Shown piece after piece: positions 39,450-47,344 of a stretch of DNA of 47,606 nucleotides (its first letter is position 1; every line of letters begins with the position of its first letter). The notes beneath the pieces are model-generated. The model did no database searches, was not told where the DNA came from, and saw nothing but the letters and a program-made list of their open reading frames with translations. Source of the DNA: an uncultured Erysipelotrichaceae bacterium (GTDB lineage Bacteria > Bacillota_I > Bacilli_A > RF39 > UBA660); contig CACZXL010000003.1 in assembly GCA_902785135.1 (NCBI GenBank), forward strand, positions 71,849 through 119,454, in the 5' to 3' direction. Both the position numbers and the translations under genes were made by a program.

Positions 39450-40685
39450 ATGGAACTGGAAAAAGAGTTAATTGTTAAAATTGAAAGATTTAATAATGAA
39501 GGTGAAGGAGTCGGTTTATATAATGATTTTGTCATCTTTGTTAAGGGTGCATTAATAGATGAAGAAGTACAAGTTAAAATAGTGGATATTAAAAAGAATT
39601 ACGCAATAGGTAAATTAATAAATGTACTTATCCCATCAAAAGAAAGAGTAGAACCTATTTGTCCATACTATAATACTTGTGGTGGATGCGATATAATGCA
39701 CATGAGTAATGAATTACAATTAGAATTTAAAAAGAAAAAAATAGAAGATATATTTAAAAAGGTTTGTAAGATAGATGTAAAAGTAAAAGAAATCTGTTCT
39801 TATAATAATTTAAATTATAGAAATAAAGTAGTATTAAGAGTTGAAGGTAATAAAATAGGATATTATAAACCTAGAAGTAAAGATCTTGTTGATATAGAAG
39901 AATGTAAGATATGTGATGAACACATAAATGAAACTATAAAGATTATAAGAGAATATATTAATCATTATAAGACACATAAAATACATGAAGTAATAATAAG
40001 AACTGCTAGAGATGAAGTTATGATCTATTTTGATAGTCTTAATCCAACATGGCAAGATAAGTTTATTGAAAGATGTAAAAATGTAACTAGTATTTATGTT
40101 AAGAATAAACTTATATATGGTTTAGATAGTATAAATCAAAAGATTAATAATTTAGGATTTGATATATCTCCTAAATCATTCTTCCAAGTTAATCCAGCAA
40201 CAGCATCTAATTTATATAAATATGCTTTAAAAAGAGTTAATGATCAAAATATAACTGTTGATTTATATTCTGGAACTGGAACTATCGCAATGGCTTTAGC
40301 AGAAAAAAGTAGAAGAGTAATCGCAATAGAGTCAAATAAATCTGCAGTAGCGAACGCTAAAAGTAATCTAGATTTAAATGATATTGATAATGTGGAATTT
40401 AAACTAGGTAAAGTTGAAGACTTAATAGATGAATTAAAAGAATTTAATATAGATACTTTAGTACTTGATCCACCAAGAAGTGGTAGTGATAAAAAAACTT
40501 TAAAATCTTTATTAAGAATTAAACCTAAATCAATAGTATATATTTCTTGTAATCCAGTTACACTAGCTAGAGATTATAATGTAATAAGAAGTATGTATGA
40601 CATATTAGAAGTAAAAGCATTTGATATGTTCCCAAATACGCATCATGTGGAAACGGTCATGATATTAGAAAAGAAAGATGTTTAA
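39450..40685 (+). CDS. rlmD: 23S rRNA (uracil-5-)-methyltransferase, RlmD/RumA type
   Basis: The product has 411 residues. A TRAM domain (about 1-60) is followed by a 4Fe-4S cysteine cluster CPYYNTCGGC (Cys71, 77, 80) and the SAM fold DLYSGTGTIAMALA, LDPPRSG and SCNPVTLARD with the catalytic Cys367. It methylates uracil in 23S rRNA using SAM. The 3' end encodes MFPNTHHVETVMILEKKDV; this segment and its terminator recur at three downstream junctions. The 3' end of rumA-type genes is a known integration site for streptococcal ICEs. Confidence 0.93.
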   Translation: MELEKELIVKIERFNNEGEGVGLYNDFVIFVKGALIDEEVQVKIVDIKKNYAIGKLINVLIPSKERVEPICPYYNTCGGCDIMHMSNELQLEFKKKKIEDIFKKVCKIDVKVKEICSYNNLNYRNKVVLRVEGNKIGYYKPRSKDLVDIEECKICDEHINETIKIIREYINHYKTHKIHEVIIRTARDEVMIYFDSLNPTWQDKFIERCKNVTSIYVKNKLIYGLDSINQKINNLGFDISPKSFFQVNPATASNLYKYALKRVNDQNITVDLYSGTGTIAMALAEKSRRVIAIESNKSAVANAKSNLDLNDIDNVEFKLGKVEDLIDELKEFNIDTLVLDPPRSGSDKKTLKSLLRIKPKSIVYISCNPVTLARDYNVIRSMYDILEVKAFDMFPNTHHVETVMILEKKDV

Positions 40686-40700
40686 AAGAACATCTTTTTT
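40675..40700 (+). terminator. rlmD terminator
   Basis: AAGATGTT/AACATCTT with a six-base loop containing the stop codon, then Ts. The same hairpin recurs at 41367, 42227 and 42904. Confidence 0.8.
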
Positions 40701-40726
40701 AATCGTAAAATAGTAGTATTCCGATT
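40701..40726 (+). repeat. Downstream boundary-type repeat after the rlmD terminator (copy 1)
   Basis: The 26-bp site begins AATCGTAAAATAGTAGTATT and ends CCGATT, so its ends AATCG and CGATT are exact inverted repeats. Confidence 0.65.
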
Positions 40727-40746
40727 AATTAAATTATAAAAAAGTA

Positions 40747-40755
40747 TGGTATAAT
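40747..40755 (+). promoter_or_regulatory. Extended -10 promoter, unit 1
   Basis: TGGTATAAT, 38 bp before the ATG at 40794; no recognisable -35. Confidence 0.55.
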
Positions 40756-40793
40756 AAAACAAAAGAATGTGATTTGTTAAAGGAGATTAAGAG

Positions 40794-41213
40794 ATGAGTA
40801 ATTATAATGATAAAGAGGAAAAAATTATAAAACAATGTAATGAAGGACCTTTTCATACACTAATTACAAAATTATCTAATGATGAATTTGATGATTTGGT
40901 TTTAAAATTAGTTAATGATGACAATTCATATACTTTGACAAGTTTAGTTTCTATTTACTGTGATTATAACAGAAATAAAATAATAGATTATTTTATTGAT
41001 AAAGGAGATATTGAGTTGTTATTGGGGTTCTTAGATTATTGTAATGATTTTAGTACACTAAATAATCAATTAGATCAAAAATATGTTGTAGATAAACTAT
41101 TAGAAAAGAATGATAAAAAGTTTATAAAAGATATATTAGAGAGCAATTCTATATACTTTTTAACTAATACGGAAGAAAAAAATAGATTATTAGGTTTTAT
41201 TTCGGCATCGTGA
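40794..41213 (+). CDS. Unknown small helical protein (unit 1)
   Basis: The product has 139 residues. AAAGGAG lies upstream of the ATG. It is acidic and appears fully helical, with repeated Asp-Asn-Lys patterns (LVNDDNSYTLTSLVSIYCDYNRNKIIDYFIDKGDIE) that recall helical-repeat folds, but no family is recognised. There is no signal peptide or membrane segment. As first unit after rlmD it would be the newest insertion if insertion always occurs at the rlmD end. Confidence 0.65.
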   Translation: MSNYNDKEEKIIKQCNEGPFHTLITKLSNDEFDDLVLKLVNDDNSYTLTSLVSIYCDYNRNKIIDYFIDKGDIELLLGFLDYCNDFSTLNNQLDQKYVVDKLLEKNDKKFIKDILESNSIYFLTNTEEKNRLLGFISAS

Positions 41214-41240
41214 TATTTAAAAATTATGCTTTGTTAAAAT

Positions 41241-41266
41241 AATCGGAAGATTAAGATATTGCGATA
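41241..41266 (+). repeat. Boundary motif after unit 1
   Basis: AATCGGAAGATTAAGATATT is followed by GCGATA, so the ends are ATCG and CGAT. GATATGTTC continues at 41263-41271, as in rlmD. Confidence 0.75.
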
Positions 41267-41309
41267 TGTTCTTGATCCACAGACATATCTGTAACAATGG
41301 AGATAAATT

Positions 41310-41418
41310 GATATGTTCGTTCACCGCATACAAGGCATGTTGAAACAGTTATGATTTTAGAAAAGAAAGATGTTTAAAAGAACATCTTTTTTAATCGTAA
41401 AATAGTAATATTACGATG
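41310..41418 (+). repeat. Copy of the rlmD 3' end, terminator and 26-bp site (copy 2)
   Basis: It starts at GATATGTTC and reads PHTRHVETVMILEKKDV-stop (TAA 41375-41377), followed by the same terminator and a 26-bp site ending in TTACGATG. It differs from native rlmD mostly at silent codon positions. Between it and the boundary motif lie 38 bp of remnant sequence. It is not translated as part of any gene. Confidence 0.85.
41367..41392 (+). terminator. Copied rlmD-type terminator before unit 2
   Basis: AAGATGTT/AACATCTT hairpin plus T run, identical to the native one. Confidence 0.75.
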
Positions 41419-41439
41419 TAATTAAATAATAAAAATATG

Positions 41440-41448
41440 TGGTATAAT
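41440..41448 (+). promoter_or_regulatory. Extended -10 promoter, unit 2
   Basis: TGGTATAAT, 16 bp before the ATG at 41465. Confidence 0.55.
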
Positions 41449-41464
41449 GATTATAGGTGATTAT

Positions 41465-42088
41465 ATGAAAGTATCTTTTGTTGATTCTAATGAATTAAAT
41501 GATGACTTAATTAAGAAAATATTCTTTAATACTGAAAAAGAACAATATGATTATGCTGATTATTTGATTATTTATGGTTGTCATATAAAAACTATGCTGG
41601 ACGAAAGATTAAATCATGCTTTGGTCATTATAAAAAATAAAAAAGTTGGTAAAATTGTTTTAACTGGTGGTATTGGGGTTAATGGTAATTTTAATGAAAG
41701 TGAATATATGCTTAATTATTTAGTAAACAATGGTATCGATAAATCTATGATTATGGTTGAGAATAAATCTACTACAACTGAAGAAAATAACATTAATATT
41801 ATGAATATGCTTAACCTAAAGAAAATTACTGAGCCTGTAAATATCGTATTAGTTACCCAGCAATTACATTTACTAAGAATAATTATGCATTGGAATAAAA
41901 TATTAGATAATAGTAATATTAAATTTTATTATGATTATGTAGAAGATAGTAATTTTTCATACGAGAATGTAATTGAAAGTGTAGAGTTAAAAGAAATGCT
42001 AAGAAAGCAAGTTGATAAAATGAAGAAGTTTATAGACGAAGGAATATATGATGATATTGATATAGATAATAACAAAAAACAAATTTAA
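41465..42088 (+). CDS. YdcF/SanA/ElyC-like DUF218 protein (unit 2)
   Basis: I use ATG 41465, which has GGTGAT upstream. The product has 207 residues. DYLIIYGCHI, GKIVLTGGIG, NESEYMLNYLVNNGIDKSMIMVENKSTTTEENN and VTQQLHLLR match the DUF218 core, including the acidic and Ser/Thr positions of the nucleotide-like pocket. Most family members carry a membrane anchor; this one does not, so it is probably cytoplasmic. The biochemical activity of the family is not established. Confidence 0.8.
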   Translation: MKVSFVDSNELNDDLIKKIFFNTEKEQYDYADYLIIYGCHIKTMLDERLNHALVIIKNKKVGKIVLTGGIGVNGNFNESEYMLNYLVNNGIDKSMIMVENKSTTTEENNINIMNMLNLKKITEPVNIVLVTQQLHLLRIIMHWNKILDNSNIKFYYDYVEDSNFSYENVIESVELKEMLRKQVDKMKKFIDEGIYDDIDIDNNKKQI

Positions 42089-42115
42089 ATTTTTAATTAT
42101 TAACTATATCTATTT

Positions 42116-42141
42116 GCTCGGAAGATTAAGATGTTATGATA
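42116..42141 (+). repeat. Boundary motif after unit 2
   Basis: TCGGAAGATTAAGATGTT followed by ATGATATGTTC. It is one of the more diverged copies. Confidence 0.65.
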
Positions 42142-42171
42142 TGTTCTTTATCTCCAAAACGTTGAGAATGA

Positions 42172-42278
42172 CATGTTCGTCATCTCCATACTAGGCACGT
42201 TGAAAAAGTTATGGTTTTAGAAAAGAAAGATGTTTAAAAGACATCTTTTTTTGAACATAAAATAGTAATGTTACGATG
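42172..42278 (+). repeat. Copy of the rlmD 3' end, terminator and 26-bp site (copy 3)
   Basis: CACGTTGAAAAAGTTATGG continues to a frame reading HVEKVMVLEKKDV-stop (TAA 42235-42237), then the rlmD-type terminator and a 26-bp site ending TTACGATG. Upstream (42138-42171) a second, more decayed tail start (GATATGTTC, then TCTCCAAAACGTTGA) suggests two successive events. Confidence 0.85.
42227..42252 (+). terminator. Copied rlmD-type terminator before unit 3
   Basis: AAAGATGT/ACATCTTT stem, seven-base loop, T run. Confidence 0.75.
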
Positions 42279-42299
42279 TAATTAAAATTTAAAAATATA

Positions 42300-42308
42300 T
42301 GATATAAT
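42300..42308 (+). promoter_or_regulatory. Extended -10 promoter, unit 3
   Basis: TGATATAAT, 20 bp before the GTG at 42329. Confidence 0.55.
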
Positions 42309-42328
42309 AATTATTGAAGGTGATATCC

Positions 42329-42820
42329 GTGAAATTAAGCGATTTAAAAGAAGTAAGTAATAATGTAAATTTAGATGAATATTTATGGTTATATGATTAT
42401 GTTAGAGATAATATGGAAAATCCTGAATGGCTAGGTACTTTTACGTTAGAAGAAATAAAAGAAATACTTAGTATTGGTGGAAAAATTTGGATGTACTATG
42501 ATAAAGATATACCAGTATGTTCTGTATTTTATATTCCAGTATCTAATAAATCATTAAGAAAGCACAATATAGAATATGATGAATCAATCACTGGAAGTCT
42601 TGGACCTATAATGGTTAGAAAAGAATATGTTGGAAATGGATTACAAACTTCAATGCTAGAGGTTTTAAACAATTATGTTAAAAGCATTGGAAAAACTCAT
42701 ATGTTTACAAAAGCTCATTCAGATAATATTTATTCAATACGTAATATTATAAAAGATGGGTATAATGTCATAGATGAATATGAAAACGAAAGAGGACCAA
42801 TGAAAGCATTTATAAAATAA
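42329..42820 (+). CDS. GNAT-family N-acetyltransferase (unit 3)
   Basis: I choose GTG 42329, with AAGGTGAT six bases upstream; other in-frame TTG/GTG codons lack a ribosome binding site. The product has 163 residues. VRKEYVGNGLQTSMLEVL carries the acetyl-CoA pyrophosphate-binding loop (R/Q-x-x-G-x-G/A-like), with SVFYIPVS before and HSDNIYSIRNIIKDGYNVIDEYE after it, as in GNAT motifs A and B. The substrate is unknown. Such enzymes are common in accessory cassettes. Confidence 0.78.
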   Translation: MKLSDLKEVSNNVNLDEYLWLYDYVRDNMENPEWLGTFTLEEIKEILSIGGKIWMYYDKDIPVCSVFYIPVSNKSLRKHNIEYDESITGSLGPIMVRKEYVGNGLQTSMLEVLNNYVKSIGKTHMFTKAHSDNIYSIRNIIKDGYNVIDEYENERGPMKAFIK

Positions 42821-42825
42821 ATAAT

Positions 42826-42851
42826 AATCGTCATATTAAGATATTGCGATA
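42826..42851 (+). repeat. Boundary motif after unit 3
   Basis: AATCGTCATATTAAGATATT then GCGATA, merging directly into the next rlmD-tail copy at GATATGTTC. Confidence 0.75.
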
Positions 42852-42956
42852 TGTTCGTTGACCGCATACTAGGCACGTTGAAACAGTTATGGTTTTAGAA
42901 AAGAAAGATGTTTAAAAGACATCTTTTTTTAATCGTAAAATAGTAATATTGTGATT
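42848..42956 (+). repeat. Copy of the rlmD 3' end, terminator and 26-bp site (copy 4)
   Basis: GATATGTTC, five extra bases, then a frame reading PHTRHV-like sequence and HVETVMVLEKKDV-stop (TAA 42913-42915). The terminator and a 26-bp site ending TTGTGATT follow. Unlike copies 2 and 3 there is no filler between boundary motif and tail. Confidence 0.85.
42904..42930 (+). terminator. Copied rlmD-type terminator before unit 4
   Basis: AAAGATGT/ACATCTTT stem, T run. Confidence 0.75.
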
Positions 42957-43012: not shown

Positions 43013-43756
43013 ATGAATGAGTATATTAATTTAGATGAAAAGAATATTGATGAAGAACATATTTGTTGTGCTATAGGAGATCCTAAACATCAAGATGGTG
43101 TAGATAAAAAGAAAGAATGGATTAAAAGTAAATTAAAGGATGGTCATGTATTTAGAAAATTAAATGCAAGAGGTAAAATCTTTATTGAATATGAACCAAT
43201 AGAAACAGCTTGGGTTCCTATTAACGGAAAAAACTATATGCATATTTACTGTTTATGGGTTGCTGGTAGTTTTAAAGGAAAAGGTATTGGTAAAGAATTA
43301 TTAGAATATGCTATTGAAGATGCTAAAAAGAAAAAAATGAGTGGTGTTTGTACATTGGTATCACAAAAGAAAAAACCATTTATTGGAGATAAAAAATTCT
43401 TTGAACACTATGGATTTAAAGTAGTAGATACAATTAATGATTATGAATTAATGGCATTACAATTTGATGATAAAGAAACACCTAAATTTAGTGATAGTGC
43501 TAGAAAGATGGAAATAGATAGTCAAGATTTCACTATTTACTATTCTAATGAATGTCCATATGTTGAATATGAAGTAAAAGAATTATCTGATTATGCAAAA
43601 GATAAAGGAATTAAGTTAAACTTTATAAAAATGGATTCATTAGAAAAAGCTAAAAATGCACCATGTGTGTTTAATAATTGGGCTAATTTCTATAAAGGAA
43701 AATTTGTTTCAAATACAATTTTAAATGCAAACGCATTTGAAAAATTAATTAAATAA
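43013..43756 (+). CDS. GNAT acetyltransferase with YoaP-like C-terminal domain (unit 4)
   Basis: The product has 247 residues. Residues 1-155 are a GNAT domain with CLWVAGSFKGKGIGKELLEYAI, a complete acetyl-CoA loop. The C-terminal part (FTIYYSNECPYVEYEVKEL and LEKAKNAPCVFNNWANFYKGKFVSN) matches the YoaP-like extension with its thioredoxin-like pattern and two cysteines. GAGGTG precedes the ATG. The family occurs widely in Bacillota as an accessory gene; its substrate is unknown. Confidence 0.85.
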   Translation: MNEYINLDEKNIDEEHICCAIGDPKHQDGVDKKKEWIKSKLKDGHVFRKLNARGKIFIEYEPIETAWVPINGKNYMHIYCLWVAGSFKGKGIGKELLEYAIEDAKKKKMSGVCTLVSQKKKPFIGDKKFFEHYGFKVVDTINDYELMALQFDDKETPKFSDSARKMEIDSQDFTIYYSNECPYVEYEVKELSDYAKDKGIKLNFIKMDSLEKAKNAPCVFNNWANFYKGKFVSNTILNANAFEKLIK

Positions 43757-43759
43757 AGT

Positions 43760-43780
43760 AATCGTAATATTAATATATAT
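43760..43780 (+). repeat. Boundary motif after unit 4 (diverged)
   Basis: AATCGTAATATTAATATATA keeps the AATCG end and AT-rich centre; the right half is replaced by a new terminator. Confidence 0.5.
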
Positions 43781-43806
43781 AGAACGGATGAGAATTCGTT
43801 CTTTTA
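43781..43806 (+). terminator. Terminator opening unit 5
   Basis: AGAACGGAT/ATTCGTTCT (one G-T pair) with loop GAGA and Ts; unrelated in sequence to the rlmD-type hairpins. Confidence 0.65.
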
Positions 43807-43815
43807 TGTTATAAT
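43807..43815 (+). promoter_or_regulatory. Extended -10 promoter, unit 5
   Basis: TGTTATAAT directly after the terminator, 20 bp before the ATG. Confidence 0.55.
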
Positions 43816-43835
43816 TAATTATAGGAGTTGATAGA

Positions 43836-44129
43836 ATGGCTACTACAAAAGATTATAGAGATTATATTTTAGAACAATTAAGTTTATTAGATAATATAAC
43901 TTGTAAGTCAATGATGGGAGAATATTTACTTTATTATAACGGATTATTATTTGGTGGCATTTATGATGATAGATTACTTGTTAAAATAGTCGATAGCAAT
44001 AAAAAATATAATATGCAAGAATCTATTCCTTATGAAAGTGCTAAACCAATGTATCTTGTAGATGATGTAGATAATCAAGAATTATTAAGAAGTATTGTTT
44101 TAGATACTTGTAAAAATTTAAAAAAATAG
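43836..44129 (+). CDS. TfoX N-terminal-domain protein (unit 5)
   Basis: The product has 97 residues, a single TfoX-N domain: YILEQLSLLDNITCKSMMGEYLLYYNGLLFGGIYDDRLLVKI and YESAKPMYLVDDV are the conserved core. The C-terminal DNA-binding half of competence regulator TfoX is absent, as in most free-standing bacterial TfoX-N proteins, so a competence role should not be assumed. AGGAG precedes the ATG. Confidence 0.85.
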   Translation: MATTKDYRDYILEQLSLLDNITCKSMMGEYLLYYNGLLFGGIYDDRLLVKIVDSNKKYNMQESIPYESAKPMYLVDDVDNQELLRSIVLDTCKNLKK

Positions 44130-44140
44130 AAAAATAAACT

Positions 44141-44160
44141 AATCGTAAGATTAAGATATT
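44141..44160 (+). repeat. Boundary motif after unit 5
   Basis: AATCGTAAGATTAAGATATT; the next bases are CCCGTACATT, as after unit 9. Confidence 0.75.
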
Positions 44161-44170
44161 CCCGTACATT

Positions 44171-44198
44171 AAGATGAGAAATAATCTCATCTTTTTTT
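44171..44198 (+). terminator. Terminator opening unit 6
   Basis: AAGATGAGA/TCTCATCTT with T run, preceded by CCCGTACATT; nearly identical to the one at 47355. A partial second site (TAGTAATATTGTGAG) follows. Confidence 0.8.
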
Positions 44199-44234
44199 AG
44201 TAATATTGTGAGCTAACTGAATTTTAAAAAACTA

Positions 44235-44243
44235 TGATATAAT
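44235..44243 (+). promoter_or_regulatory. Extended -10 promoter, unit 6
   Basis: TGATATAAT, 22 bp before the ATG. Confidence 0.55.
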
Positions 44244-44265
44244 ATTAATATAAGGTTGTGATAGT

Positions 44266-44769
44266 ATGTTTAAAGAATTAACTGATGATCCATTTTATAT
44301 AGAATATAAAAAATATGATAGATGTGTATTAGATTATTTCATAATAGAAAGTGATTTAGGTCATAAAGATGTTCTATTATATGCGATGAATAAAATAACA
44401 GAAAAAGATGATTATATAACGATAGACAAAGATAAGATGAAATATAATGAAATTAGTTCAAAAGATTTTTTTGAGTTACCAAAAGATTATGAAAAAGAAA
44501 GATGTAATATAGGTGATGGGCACAAAAGACCATATTGGTATTTATTTTTAGATCCACCTCATACTACAAATTATAAAATAGATGATTTTATAGAAATAAA
44601 TAATATATTATTTCCAAAAGGAAAAGAATATTTAGAAATATATGATTGGAATGTTGATTGGTCAAATTATTTTGAAGATGGACTAGAATGGTGGGGTGCA
44701 GCAGCAATATCTATCTACGATAAAATGTTAGATAGATATATAATAATACTTGCATCATCAACAGATTAA
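44266..44769 (+). CDS. Unknown soluble protein (unit 6)
   Basis: The product has 167 residues and is acidic, with many aromatic residues: RPYWYLFLDPPHTTNY, LEIYDWNVDWSNYFEDGLEWWGA and SIYDKMLDRYIIILASSTD. There is no membrane segment or signal peptide. The Trp/Asp-rich pattern recalls small accessory proteins of Firmicutes that lack an assigned function; an immunity-protein-like role is only a guess. The ribosome binding site AAGG is weak. Confidence 0.65.
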   Translation: MFKELTDDPFYIEYKKYDRCVLDYFIIESDLGHKDVLLYAMNKITEKDDYITIDKDKMKYNEISSKDFFELPKDYEKERCNIGDGHKRPYWYLFLDPPHTTNYKIDDFIEINNILFPKGKEYLEIYDWNVDWSNYFEDGLEWWGAAAISIYDKMLDRYIIILASSTD

Positions 44770-44773
44770 TAGT

Positions 44774-44798
44774 TTGGAATATTTTGAGATTGCGATAA
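44774..44798 (+). repeat. Strongly diverged boundary motif after unit 6
   Basis: GGAATATTTTGAGATTGCGATA keeps the spacing and the GATTGCGATA end of the family but matches poorly elsewhere. Confidence 0.35.
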
Positions 44799-44805
44799 GT
44801 ATAAG

Positions 44806-44825
44806 ACGGATAAAAATCCGTTTTT
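44806..44825 (+). terminator. Terminator opening unit 7
   Basis: ACGGAT/ATCCGT with loop AAAA and Ts. Confidence 0.65.
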
Positions 44826-44828
44826 GTA

Positions 44829-44837
44829 TGATATAAT
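44829..44837 (+). promoter_or_regulatory. Extended -10 promoter, unit 7
   Basis: TGATATAAT. The stretch from TATAAT to the ATG (44832-44860) is identical to that of unit 9 (46601-46629). Confidence 0.6.
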
Positions 44838-44857
44838 TTTATATAGAGGTTGATATT

Positions 44858-45424
44858 ATGGATAGACCAGAATTAAATAATCAATTAGATAGTAAAACAT
44901 TTAGAGAGTATTATTATTTAAAAGAAGAACTTATTGATTTTTGTAGAAAAAATAATTTGCAAACTACGGGTGGTAAAATTGAACTAACTGATAGAATATC
45001 AAAGTTTCTTGATACAGGAGAAAGAATTTTTAAGGTATATAATTCTAGAAGAACAAAAATAATAGATGAAATCACTCTTGAAAGCATTATAGAAGATAAT
45101 TTTGTATGTTCTGAAAAGCATAGAGCATTTTATAAAAAAGAGATAGGTAAAAGTTTTTCGTTTAATGTTTTATTTCAAAAGTGGTTAAAAAATAATGCAG
45201 GAAAAACTTATAAAGATTCAATAGAAGCATACTATAAAATATTAGAAGATAAGAAAAATAATAAAACTACTATTGATAAACAATTTGAATACAATACCTA
45301 TATAAGAGATTTTTTTAATGATAATAAAGATAAAACATTAGATGATGCTATTAAATGTTGGAAATATAAAAAGAGTTTAAAAGGCTCCAATAAATATGAA
45401 AAGGAAGATCTTAAAATTTTATAA
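44858..45424 (+). CDS. SAP-domain / DUF6434-like protein (unit 7)
   Basis: The product has 188 residues. The N-terminus (RPELNNQLDSKTFREYYYLKEELIDFCRKNNLQTTGGKIELTDRI) contains a SAP-like helix-turn-helix motif often tied to nucleic-acid binding; the following part (EDNFVCSEKHRAFYKKEIGKSFSFNVLFQKWLKNNAGKTYKDSIEAY) matches the DUF6434 pattern. It is basic and cytoplasmic. Function unknown. It shares promoter and ribosome binding site sequence with unit 9. Confidence 0.75.
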   Translation: MDRPELNNQLDSKTFREYYYLKEELIDFCRKNNLQTTGGKIELTDRISKFLDTGERIFKVYNSRRTKIIDEITLESIIEDNFVCSEKHRAFYKKEIGKSFSFNVLFQKWLKNNAGKTYKDSIEAYYKILEDKKNNKTTIDKQFEYNTYIRDFFNDNKDKTLDDAIKCWKYKKSLKGSNKYEKEDLKIL

Positions 45425-45431
45425 TTAGAAT

Positions 45432-45451
45432 GATCAGAAGATTAAGATATT
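45432..45451 (+). repeat. Boundary motif after unit 7
   Basis: GATCAGAAGATTAAGATATT; the next bases are AGGAACGAAAGTTCC, as after unit 8. Confidence 0.7.
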
Positions 45452-45474
45452 AGGAACGAAAGTTCCTTTTATTT
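45452..45474 (+). terminator. Terminator opening unit 8
   Basis: AGGAAC/GTTCCT with a GAAA tetraloop and a short T run; nearly identical to 46575-46596. Confidence 0.7.
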
Positions 45475-45475
45475 G

Positions 45476-45484
45476 TGATATAAT
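45476..45484 (+). promoter_or_regulatory. Extended -10 promoter, unit 8
   Basis: TGATATAAT. The start codon is 133 bp away, so this unit has the longest leader in the array. Confidence 0.5.
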
Positions 45485-45499
45485 ATAGATATATTAATA

Positions 45500-45617
45500 G
45501 TGATTTGCTAATAAGGAAACTTAAAGTTGCGAAGAAAATTACAGTTGCAAATTGTAGTTGGTAGAAAAACTTTGAGTGCTACCACATAATAGAGTTATAC
45601 ATTGGGAGGTGTATAAT
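45500..45617 (+). promoter_or_regulatory. Long, possibly structured leader of the XRE gene
   Basis: TTGGTAG (near 45559) can pair with CTACCA (near 45581), and GTTGC and TTACAG repeats lie upstream. The other units have 15-40 nt leaders, so this one may carry a control element or a decayed reading frame. No known riboswitch is recognised. Confidence 0.3.
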
Positions 45618-46517
45618 ATGTTTTTTGGAGAGAATCTTCAAATATTAAGAAAAAGAGATAATTTATCGCAAGAAGATCTTGCAGATAAATTACAAGTTTC
45701 AAGACAAGCAGTTAGTAAATGGGAAAGTGGTACTGGATTTCCTGAAACTGAAAAAATAATAGCTATTTGTGAAGTATTTAAATGTAGTATGGATGAATTA
45801 GTTAAAGGTAAAATATCATTAGATGTTAAATCTGAAAAAGAAGAATATGAAAGAATAATGAATAAACAAATATATGGTTCTATGTTAGGTGTAGCTATTA
45901 TTTTGTTAGGTGTAACTATAATGATGATTTTAATGGGTTTAGCTCCAGCTGGTGAATTAGAAGAAAGATATTCAATGTTTGGTATAATATCTGTTTTAAT
46001 TGCTGTAGCAGTCGCAGTACCAACATTTATAATCACAGGAAATGAAGCGGAAAACTTTAAAAAAAATAATATTAAAATTACAAATATGTATACTGATAAA
46101 GAATTAGAAAATATAAAAAGAAAAACAACAATTATTAAAGCTATTGGAATTTTTATTATATTAGTAGGTACAATAATAATGTTTTTAACAATGGCTCTTA
46201 ATATTTTTGGAGAAAGAACACAATTATCAGTTGCTTGTTTATTAGGATGCATAACAATAGCTATTCCATTTTTAATATATGCTGGTCAAAATGAAGAAAA
46301 AGTTGATATTGAGAAATATAATCTAGGTCAAACCAAAGAAGCTAAAAAGAATCAACAATTAATTGGAAAGATATGTGGAACTATAATGCTTGTCGCAACT
46401 ATTATTTTCTTAATATGGAGTTTCATAACAAACATGTGGAATATTAGTTGGATTGTTTTTCCAATTGGTGGAATTCTATGTGGTATTGTTGGAACAATAT
46501 TTGGAAGCAAAGAATAA
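45618..46517 (+). CDS. XRE-family regulator with six membrane segments (unit 8)
   Basis: I choose ATG 45618, which follows GGGAGGTG. The product has 299 residues. Residues 5-62 are an HTH_3 domain (NLSQEDLADKLQVSRQAVSKWESGTGFPETEKI, CSMDELVKG). The rest holds about six membrane segments in three pairs. Membrane-tethered XRE proteins of this build are common in Firmicutes and often sense envelope stress or antimicrobial peptides; that role is inferred. It lies beside a CPBP-family gene. Confidence 0.85.
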   Translation: MFFGENLQILRKRDNLSQEDLADKLQVSRQAVSKWESGTGFPETEKIIAICEVFKCSMDELVKGKISLDVKSEKEEYERIMNKQIYGSMLGVAIILLGVTIMMILMGLAPAGELEERYSMFGIISVLIAVAVAVPTFIITGNEAENFKKNNIKITNMYTDKELENIKRKTTIIKAIGIFIILVGTIIMFLTMALNIFGERTQLSVACLLGCITIAIPFLIYAGQNEEKVDIEKYNLGQTKEAKKNQQLIGKICGTIMLVATIIFLIWSFITNMWNISWIVFPIGGILCGIVGTIFGSKE

Positions 46518-46554
46518 AAAAAGATTATAATTCAAACATTTATAATAGATAGTT

Positions 46555-46574
46555 GTTCGGACTATTAAGATATT
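46555..46574 (+). repeat. Boundary motif after unit 8
   Basis: TTCGGACTATTAAGATATT, followed by AGGAACGAAAGTTCC. Confidence 0.7.
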
Positions 46575-46596
46575 AGGAACGAAAGTTCCTTTTTTT
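46575..46596 (+). terminator. Terminator opening unit 9
   Basis: AGGAAC/GTTCCT with GAAA loop and T run, matching the terminator of unit 8. Confidence 0.75.
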
Positions 46597-46597
46597 G

Positions 46598-46606
46598 TGT
46601 TATAAT
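46598..46606 (+). promoter_or_regulatory. Extended -10 promoter, unit 9
   Basis: TGTTATAAT follows the terminator directly and is 20 bp before the ATG. Confidence 0.55.
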
Positions 46607-46626
46607 TTTATATAGAGGTTGATATT

Positions 46627-47322
46627 ATGATAAAAGCATTATGTGCAAATCGAGAATATAATGATAATTTAAAAAAGTATGATAAAAAAGATGGAATGCT
46701 TGCTGTATTATTATTTGTAATTGTTATAATAATGTATGCTTCAGTAGGAATCTTATATAAGAATAATAGTTTTATAAAAGATAATATTAAAATAATTGGA
46801 TGTTTATTTAATTTATTATTAATAATCGTTACTATTTTATTTGTTAAATTAAGAAAACAGCGATTAGAAACTATTGGTTTAAAAGGTAGATGGAAATTAA
46901 GCATTATTCTTGGTGGCATATTATCTTTATTTTATTTTTATTGTAATTGTTTAGATCATTTAATTAATGGAGAAAAATTAATATCAATTACAAGTATATT
47001 ATTTTTGATGATATATTTTTTATTAGTATCTGTATGTGAAGAATTAGTATTTAGAGGTTATATAGGTACAAGATTAAATGGTTTAATTAAGAATAAATAT
47101 ATTGTAATAATTGTTACTGGAATATTATTTGTTGTTATGCATTTTCCATATAGAATGATAGCAGCTAATATGTCATTAACTGATTTTGATATTGGATGGC
47201 TTATAAATTTATTTATATTTCATTTGATAATGAATTTTATTTATATGAAAACAAATTCAATATATGGATCAATTATTCCACATTGGATTTCTGATTTAGC
47301 ATATGAAATAGTTTCAAGATAA
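46627..47322 (+). CDS. CPBP-family intramembrane metalloprotease (unit 9)
   Basis: The product has 231 residues with about seven membrane segments. The CPBP (Abi/CAAX) motifs are present: CEELVFRG with Glu138, Glu139 and Arg143, and MHFPY with His172; the last motif N-F-I-Y with Asn lies in the next helix. Bacterial members are linked to bacteriocin self-immunity and peptide maturation. It starts with the same promoter-to-ATG sequence as unit 7. Confidence 0.88.
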   Translation: MIKALCANREYNDNLKKYDKKDGMLAVLLFVIVIIMYASVGILYKNNSFIKDNIKIIGCLFNLLLIIVTILFVKLRKQRLETIGLKGRWKLSIILGGILSLFYFYCNCLDHLINGEKLISITSILFLMIYFLLVSVCEELVFRGYIGTRLNGLIKNKYIVIIVTGILFVVMHFPYRMIAANMSLTDFDIGWLINLFIFHLIMNFIYMKTNSIYGSIIPHWISDLAYEIVSR

Positions 47323-47324
47323 CT

Positions 47325-47344
47325 AATCGGAAGATTAAGATATT
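47325..47344 (+). repeat. Boundary motif after unit 9
   Basis: AATCGGAAGATTAAGATATT, two bases after the stop codon; the next bases are CCCGTACATT. Confidence 0.75.

Follow-up and report, generated by a model that had tools for sequence, protein, structure and literature searches.

The 3' end of rlmD and its displaced copies

We analysed a stretch of 47,606 nucleotides (hereafter the window; positions 71,849 to 119,454 of the forward strand of contig CACZXL010000003.1, assembly GCA_902785135.1) from an uncultured Erysipelotrichaceae bacterium, in which rlmD (rumA), the gene for a 23S rRNA uracil-C5 methyltransferase, is followed by a series of small gene-bearing units and by further copies of its own 3' end. 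The gene and these tails are laid out as follows:

39450..40685, + strand: rlmD (NCBIfam TIGR00479 rumA, 325.7 bits, cutoff 183.6; Pfam tRNA_U5-meth_tr), whose 3' end anchors the array
40644..40700, + strand: current rlmD tail (HVETVMILEKKDV and stop) with terminator, read as brought by the newest insertion from the tail alignment and the link between KDV-stop tails and site A in the genus
41336..41393, + strand: displaced rlmD tail copy 1 with terminator (tail alignment)
42196..42253, + strand: displaced rlmD tail copy 2 with terminator, preceded by an attP-like block at 42136-42195
42874..42931, + strand: displaced rlmD tail copy 3 with terminator, preceded by a short attP-like block at 42846-42873

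The native gene ends in HVETVMILEKKDV and copies 1, 2 and 3 in HVETVMILEKKDV, HVEKVMVLEKKDV and HVETVMVLEKKDV, respectively, with codons, stop codon and terminator kept throughout. Alignment thus confirms the four tails reported by the initial annotation, which had been made from the window's letters alone, and also their mostly silent divergence: relative to the native tail the copies show 4 to 7 differences over 42 nucleotides, with no amino acid change in copy 1 and up to two in copy 2, and they match each other (39-41/42) better than they match the native tail (35-38/42). The 26-bp flanking site described with them is likewise real and is here termed site A (AATCGTAAAATAGTAATATTnCGAT). A fifth tail lies on contig C14 (L005:2449-2490); as the first 84 bp of that contig overlap the window's end exactly, the array continues there, and site A stands behind every tail except this fifth one. 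The four-tail observation is well beyond chance, given the span of the underlying D1 repeat family (158 nt, at four places in the window by repeat search) and the spread of a second site, B, whose reversed control pattern found no match.

Roughly 12 cargo units lie between rlmD and the fifth tail, and every open reading frame (ORF) listed as cargo lies on the + strand. Their order is an orphan, DUF218, an orphan, GNAT with YoaP, TfoX_N, an orphan, SAP/DUF6434, an HTH membrane regulator and a CAAX protease, followed on C14 by AbrB-like and ABC transporter genes, a B site, a TraX-like gene, another B site and tail copy 5 (the C14 genes being named from sequence alone). From start to start the units measure 692, 860 and 678 bp, and then several kb. 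These unequal lengths, together with cargo that differs from unit to unit and a copy-3 tail that matches another species, rule out a simple tandem duplication of the rlmD end, the alternative against which the insertion proposal had been set.

The rlmD 3' end as an attachment site

We compared rlmD in 12 genomes of the window's genus. In five, the gene ends in KDV and a stop, followed by the terminator and site A (the latter broken in G003), whereas in six others it ends in LERK, LERR or KN and lacks an A immediately downstream; one further copy is truncated. The KDV tail thus tracks the occupied site (5/5 versus 0/6), in keeping with the earlier proposal of repeated insertions that bring a replacement tail and displace the old one. 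The tail alignment that had been suggested as a check for import points the same way, in that the displaced copy 3 and the native tail of rlmD in a different species, G010, agree at 42/42 nucleotides. In G003 (L023), site A behind rlmD is interrupted after AGTAA and a transposase-like ORF lies next.

The displaced tails are preceded by an attP-like block (GATATGTTCGTTGACCnnATACnnGG) holding up to three repeats of GATATGTTC followed by G or T and then TTnAyC. A crossover at GATATGTTC, the point around which the initial annotation had suggested mapping it, has to be rejected, as this motif is a repeat inside the block and is also present up to three times where no rlmD tail follows. With identity to rlmD starting beyond it at CAyGTkGAAA, which encodes HVET, the predicted crossover is in the HVET codons. 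This succession of block and tail is the pattern of a putative element end followed by a displaced attB, the newest arrival giving the gene its current tail. RNAalifold predicted no pairs when the block was searched for a folded structure, and no match to the HVET motif was found in a streptococcal rumA element. In L305 (around 8560 in minus-strand coordinates), the ~24 bp before a displaced tail are identical to that genome's own rlmD (GATATGTTTTCTTATACATACCAT) and take the place of the usual repeat block, which suggests a different crossover.

Five further genera of the family (G092, G165, G203, G494, G508) likewise have a chain of small units of one or more genes each behind rlmD, bringing the rlmD arrays of integrase-less, mostly single-gene units to at least six genera. 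Among the genes shown at these arrays, in the window's genus and the five others, there is no integrase, and no relaxase, conjugation or mobilization gene; the latter are present at secA and in B-flanked elements. As some units lack any A or B site (L026, L305, L306), insertion at rlmD is a process separate from that acting at A and B.

Sites A and B and the cassettes that they bound

The cargo is bounded by two palindromic sites of ~22-24 bp. Site A (centre AGTA) heads a cargo block, while site B (centre TAAG; TCGKAAKATTAAGATATT followed by nCGA; logo TCGKAAKATTAAGATATTnCGA) comes after nearly every listed cargo gene, usually directly 3' of the stop codon, with one copy showing another centre:

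40702..40725, + strand: site A1 (ATCGTAAAATAGTAGTATT followed by CCGAT)
40794..41213, + strand: cassette 1 gene, 139 aa, no Pfam, NCBIfam or PADLOC match; segment 40703-41260 is 97.5% identical to L176 (another metagenome-assembled genome), both flanks different
41243..41260, + strand: site B1
41261..41335, + strand: attP-like block with GATATGTTC repeats, aligned to other junctions
41394..41417, + strand: site A2
41447..42088, + strand: cassette 2 gene, DUF218 (Pfam PF02698, E 1.8e-19)
42118..42135, + strand: site B2, one base off (GATGTT)
42254..42277, + strand: site A3, variant
42314..42820, + strand: cassette 3 gene, 168 aa, no Pfam match; segment 42255-42845 is 94.4% identical to L052 (G009 contig C4), both flanks different
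42828..42845, + strand: site B3
42932..42955, + strand: site A4
43013..43756, + strand: cassette 4 gene, GNAT acetyltransferase with YoaP domain (Pfam)
43762..43779, + strand: site B4, degenerate
43836..44129, + strand: cassette 5 gene, TfoX_N (Pfam); the same gene follows rlmD immediately in G005 and also stands after other B sites
44143..44160, + strand: site B5
44266..44769, + strand: cassette 6 gene, 167 aa, no Pfam match
44776..44795, + strand: B-like site with another centre (TTTGAG; repeat D3); same variant in L248
44858..45424, + strand: cassette 7 gene, SAP/DUF6434 (Pfam)
45434..45451, + strand: site B7
45576..46517, + strand: cassette 8 gene, HTH_3/DUF3784-like membrane regulator (Pfam); segment 45434-46574 is 98.9% identical to L131, both flanks different
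46557..46574, + strand: site B8
46627..47322, + strand: cassette 9 gene, CAAX protease (Rce1-like; Pfam); segment 46557-47344 is 94.0% identical to L094, both flanks different
47327..47344, + strand: site B9, after which the array goes on in contig C14

Further copies of the cassette 4 gene follow rlmD in G001 and G494 and secA in G061, and other arrays have the gene too. The TTTGAG-centred sites of the window and L248 may form a third spacer class.

Allowing one mismatch, we recovered B in 66 of 386 family genomes and 42 of 150 genera, against none for the reversed control pattern. An exact scan of GTDB species genomes returned at least 114 stretches, which with few exceptions belong to gut assemblies, ruminant or other, that bear the label Bacilli, Erysipelotrichaceae or Tenericutes. 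The cargo proteins encoded upstream of B fall into ~90 clusters, and the left context of site A varies as well, with at least 11 kinds that include the tails of rlmD and secA and a MobV gene end. Neither site was found in viral contigs, which rules out a phage origin (21 viral matches to the attP-like pattern are attributable to chance), and the plasmid and phage collections searched gave only weak matches to the TfoX region. A term search of titles or abstracts in the open-access literature returned no account of the two sites.

Elsewhere in the window's own genome (L034, G000:C5, around 1826 on the minus strand), a site A (TTCGTAAAATAGTAATATT) stands at the head of a NUDIX gene, with a flavodoxin-like gene next in line, and this NUDIX gene recurs together with its head in L114 behind a different left flank. 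Three contigs labelled Candidatus Saccharibacteria (L103, L112, L120) also carry A/B cassettes, L103 in the layout A, hydroxyacyl-CoA-dehydrogenase-like gene, B; these might reflect spread across phyla or misbinning.

This distribution bears on whether the window simply records the ordinary tandem accretion of decayed integrative elements at rlmD, namely remnants of integrative and conjugative or integrative and mobilizable elements (ICEs, IMEs) or cis-mobilizable elements (CIMEs), with A and B as conserved element ends. Such accretion at the 3' ends of genes is an established phenomenon, with rumA among its known targets (PMC5357655), and the tails and attP-like blocks of the window agree with it; as in the streptococcal arrays at rumA, elements stand in tandem in the same gene and gene ends are replaced and displaced. 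The parallel with streptococcal ICEs drawn by the initial annotation holds to this extent. Nevertheless, the units described here are not ICEs: they mostly comprise one gene, have no integrase or mobilization gene and contain nested A/B sites, while the streptococcal elements use serine integrases within rumA (PMC5357655), so that this comparison stands as an analogy. Moreover, the earlier ICE reading is incomplete in that the A/B family bounds cargo far beyond rlmD. We found A/B cargo blocks at secA, ahead of rbgA and on several backbones devoid of rlmD sequences, identical site-to-site cargo is found without any rlmD part, and the B-delimited genes at 43757-47322 of the window are not bounded by tails. 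Together with the swaps at A/B breakpoints away from rlmD described below, this makes accretion unlikely as the full explanation; it stays part of the picture for the tails, and the rlmD part of the array fits tandem accretion of integrase-less elements.

Proposed site-to-site exchange of cargo

A comparison of 266 junctions yielded 152 pairs alike on the right side only, 119 alike on the left only, and just 5 alike on both. Identity jumps at the site from ~0.4 to >0.9 and the breakpoints fall inside the sites, with the variable positions K and G/T travelling with the left partner and n mostly with the right one. Defining a site-to-site cargo match as at least 80% identity over at least 85% of the length, we found 20 matching pairs (80-99% identical), in 16 of which both flanks differ; four of these 16 involve window cassettes (97.5%, 94.4%, 98.9% and 94.0% identity). 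Judged against rlmD, whose proteins within the genus are only 48-70% identical, the far higher identity of the cargo suggests recent transfer. Whole site-to-site cargo is found on platforms as different as rlmD, secA and mobilizable elements.

The right-hand partners of A and B form largely separate sets: 2 of 51 right-side groups are mixed, and 16 A-B pairs are observed where 119 are expected. This separation may be partly functional, as right sides after B often start with a terminator. A single-strand crossover of the attC kind, located at the site's right edge, was considered and dropped: as A and B mostly pair with their own kind, the breakpoint could fall anywhere in the shared centre. 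A small number of terminator/promoter heads (e.g. AGGAACGAAAGTTCC...TATAAT) are joined to many unrelated genes, and one gene may bear different heads, the switch lying near the -10 box.

We consider it probable that the genes behind rlmD form a chromosomal array of mobile cassettes, with the 3' end of rlmD as its anchor and with cargo moved by recombination at A and B. As the sequence shows, small units, usually of one gene, were inserted repeatedly into the rlmD 3' end, each bringing a replacement tail, stop codon and terminator and pushing the older tails downstream behind an attP-like block, the latter presumably having been used by a separate integrase. Site-specific recombination of A with A and B with B would then add, remove or swap cargo in the manner of an integron array or recombinase-mediated cassette exchange. 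The cassette genes probably add accessory traits.

Candidate recombinases

As the units encode no recombinase, the enzyme acting on A and B must be supplied in trans. The window's genome (93.6% complete) has just two Phage_integrase genes, XerC-like and XerD-like, and one possibility is that the host XerCD moves the cassettes at dif-related sites, as in Xer/dif modules. While no tyrosine recombinase other than XerC and XerD was found in this genome, and palindromic sites with differing spacers recall dif modules, most genomes of the genus have a clear dif (TTTCATATAATAATTATTATGTAAACT or a close variant) with no likeness to A or B. On account of this separate dif, XerCD is rejected as the A/B enzyme, and a Xer/dif-module-like system is very unlikely on the whole.

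In relatives, the A-cargo-B compartment is found on integrative mobilizable elements with Phage_integrase, HTH_17 and Mob_Pre/MobV proteins. The order in L211 is secA, the integrase gene IntA, an ORF, an unassigned protein, a winged-helix replication-like protein, an HTH_17 excisionase-like protein, a second integrase gene IntB, MobV, A, cargo and B, whereas in L116 a B-flanked block comprises a winged-helix protein, IntB and MobV and ends in A. IntB-like genes are enriched in B-positive genomes (13/29 versus 53/357; Fisher p 2.5e-4). The likeliest source in trans would accordingly appear, from gene order and co-occurrence, to be the tyrosine integrases of these MobV-type IMEs (IntA at secA, IntB next to mobV), elements that share these A/B sites in their cargo compartment. 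At a contig end in the window's genome (L004, G000:C12), there is a second remnant, of the secA type: a fragment of a large serine recombinase precedes two B sites that enclose a pyridoxamine-oxidase-like cassette, and an attP-like region and a secA-like tail come next.

A real rival is that a serine recombinase recognises A and B, its source being the large serine recombinases in the arrays; 2-bp cores of GT in A and AA in B would then explain why the sites rarely mix. The symmetry of the sites fits 11-bp half sites around two bases, and in nine records a large serine recombinase gene with Resolvase, Recombinase and Zn-ribbon domains begins 44-56 bp after B. However, the next gene is rbgA-like in six of the nine (L064, L114, L117, L130, L145, L229) and another gene in three. 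The enzyme before the rbgA-like gene probably serves as the integrase for elements that insert upstream of rbgA; L114 and L117 are further mobilizable elements with the A/B compartment. Moreover, three B-bearing genomes of the genus (G000, G004, G010) have no Resolvase-domain gene, and we regard this rival as quite unlikely.

Several observations weigh against the proposed exchange of cassettes by a recombinase acting in trans. The window's genome offers only XerC, XerD and the large serine recombinase fragment; a close IntB is missing from 53 of 66 B-positive genomes, and its association with B is in part circular, since A sites belong to the IntB elements, which often have B at their flanks as well. 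An integrase specific for rlmD was not found either. At the level of cargo, in four of the 16 flank-swapped pairs the cargo has an A end in one location and a B end in the other, and cargo heads sometimes switch at the -10 box and not at the site. Neither an excised circle nor an empty A/B site was seen, and no terminal overlaps were found in whole contigs. Furthermore, all the genomes are metagenome assemblies or come from uncultured bacteria, in which repeats are common at contig ends. An empty DUF-Rep intergenic region, compared as a candidate for a clean empty A/B site, retained no clear site.

Comparison with known cassette systems

The array resembles integrons and clusters of attC sites lacking an integrase (CALINs) in being a one-orientation chromosomal array of small cassettes with a site directly after each gene and a distinct first site, in its diverse accessory cargo and species-shared cassettes, and in arrays without a local integrase; as in integrons, cassettes with a 3' recombination site are shuffled from site to site. 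It differs in that the window's genome has no IntI, that B is only ~22-24 bp and has no RYYYAAC/GTTRRRY boxes, that the cassettes carry promoter-like -10 boxes, and that the first site A is multiplied behind many platforms. The two variable arm positions in A/B, examined for signs of a folded site, showed no covariation, again unlike attC. Integrons are, moreover, extremely rare in Firmicutes (PMC9024848).

The dif (pdif) modules of Acinetobacter plasmids likewise have short palindromic sites of two types bounding modules that shuffle between replicons and lack a recombinase gene. However, A and B are unrelated to the genome's own dif and lie in the chromosomes of uncultured gut Bacilli, anchored at the 3' ends of housekeeping genes. 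The system thus works like an integron or dif-module system and is a member of neither. Recombinase-mediated cassette exchange is a laboratory method using heterospecific sites, in which cargo between two mutually non-recombining sites can be swapped across platforms by paired exchange; the arrangement described here would be its natural counterpart, as far as sequence comparison can indicate.

Implications

We tentatively raise the possibility that these arrays represent an integron-independent, previously undescribed form of cassette exchange in gut Bacilli, with rarely mixing A and B sites, interchangeable platforms that include the ends of housekeeping genes, and a recombinase provided in trans by mobilizable elements. 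Despite the rarity of integrons in Firmicutes (PMC9024848), dozens of genera of these uncultured gut Bacilli draw on one large, common pool of site-delimited cassettes, whose sites could be matched to neither attC nor dif. As A and B are short, defined and abundant, the question is amenable to testing. If the proposal is correct, it would add another natural gene-cassette exchange system, and its paired, mostly non-mixing recombination sites would be of practical interest. It would also help explain the trade of accessory genes among small host-associated genomes, for which the A/B system may be a hitherto undescribed route in gut bacteria.

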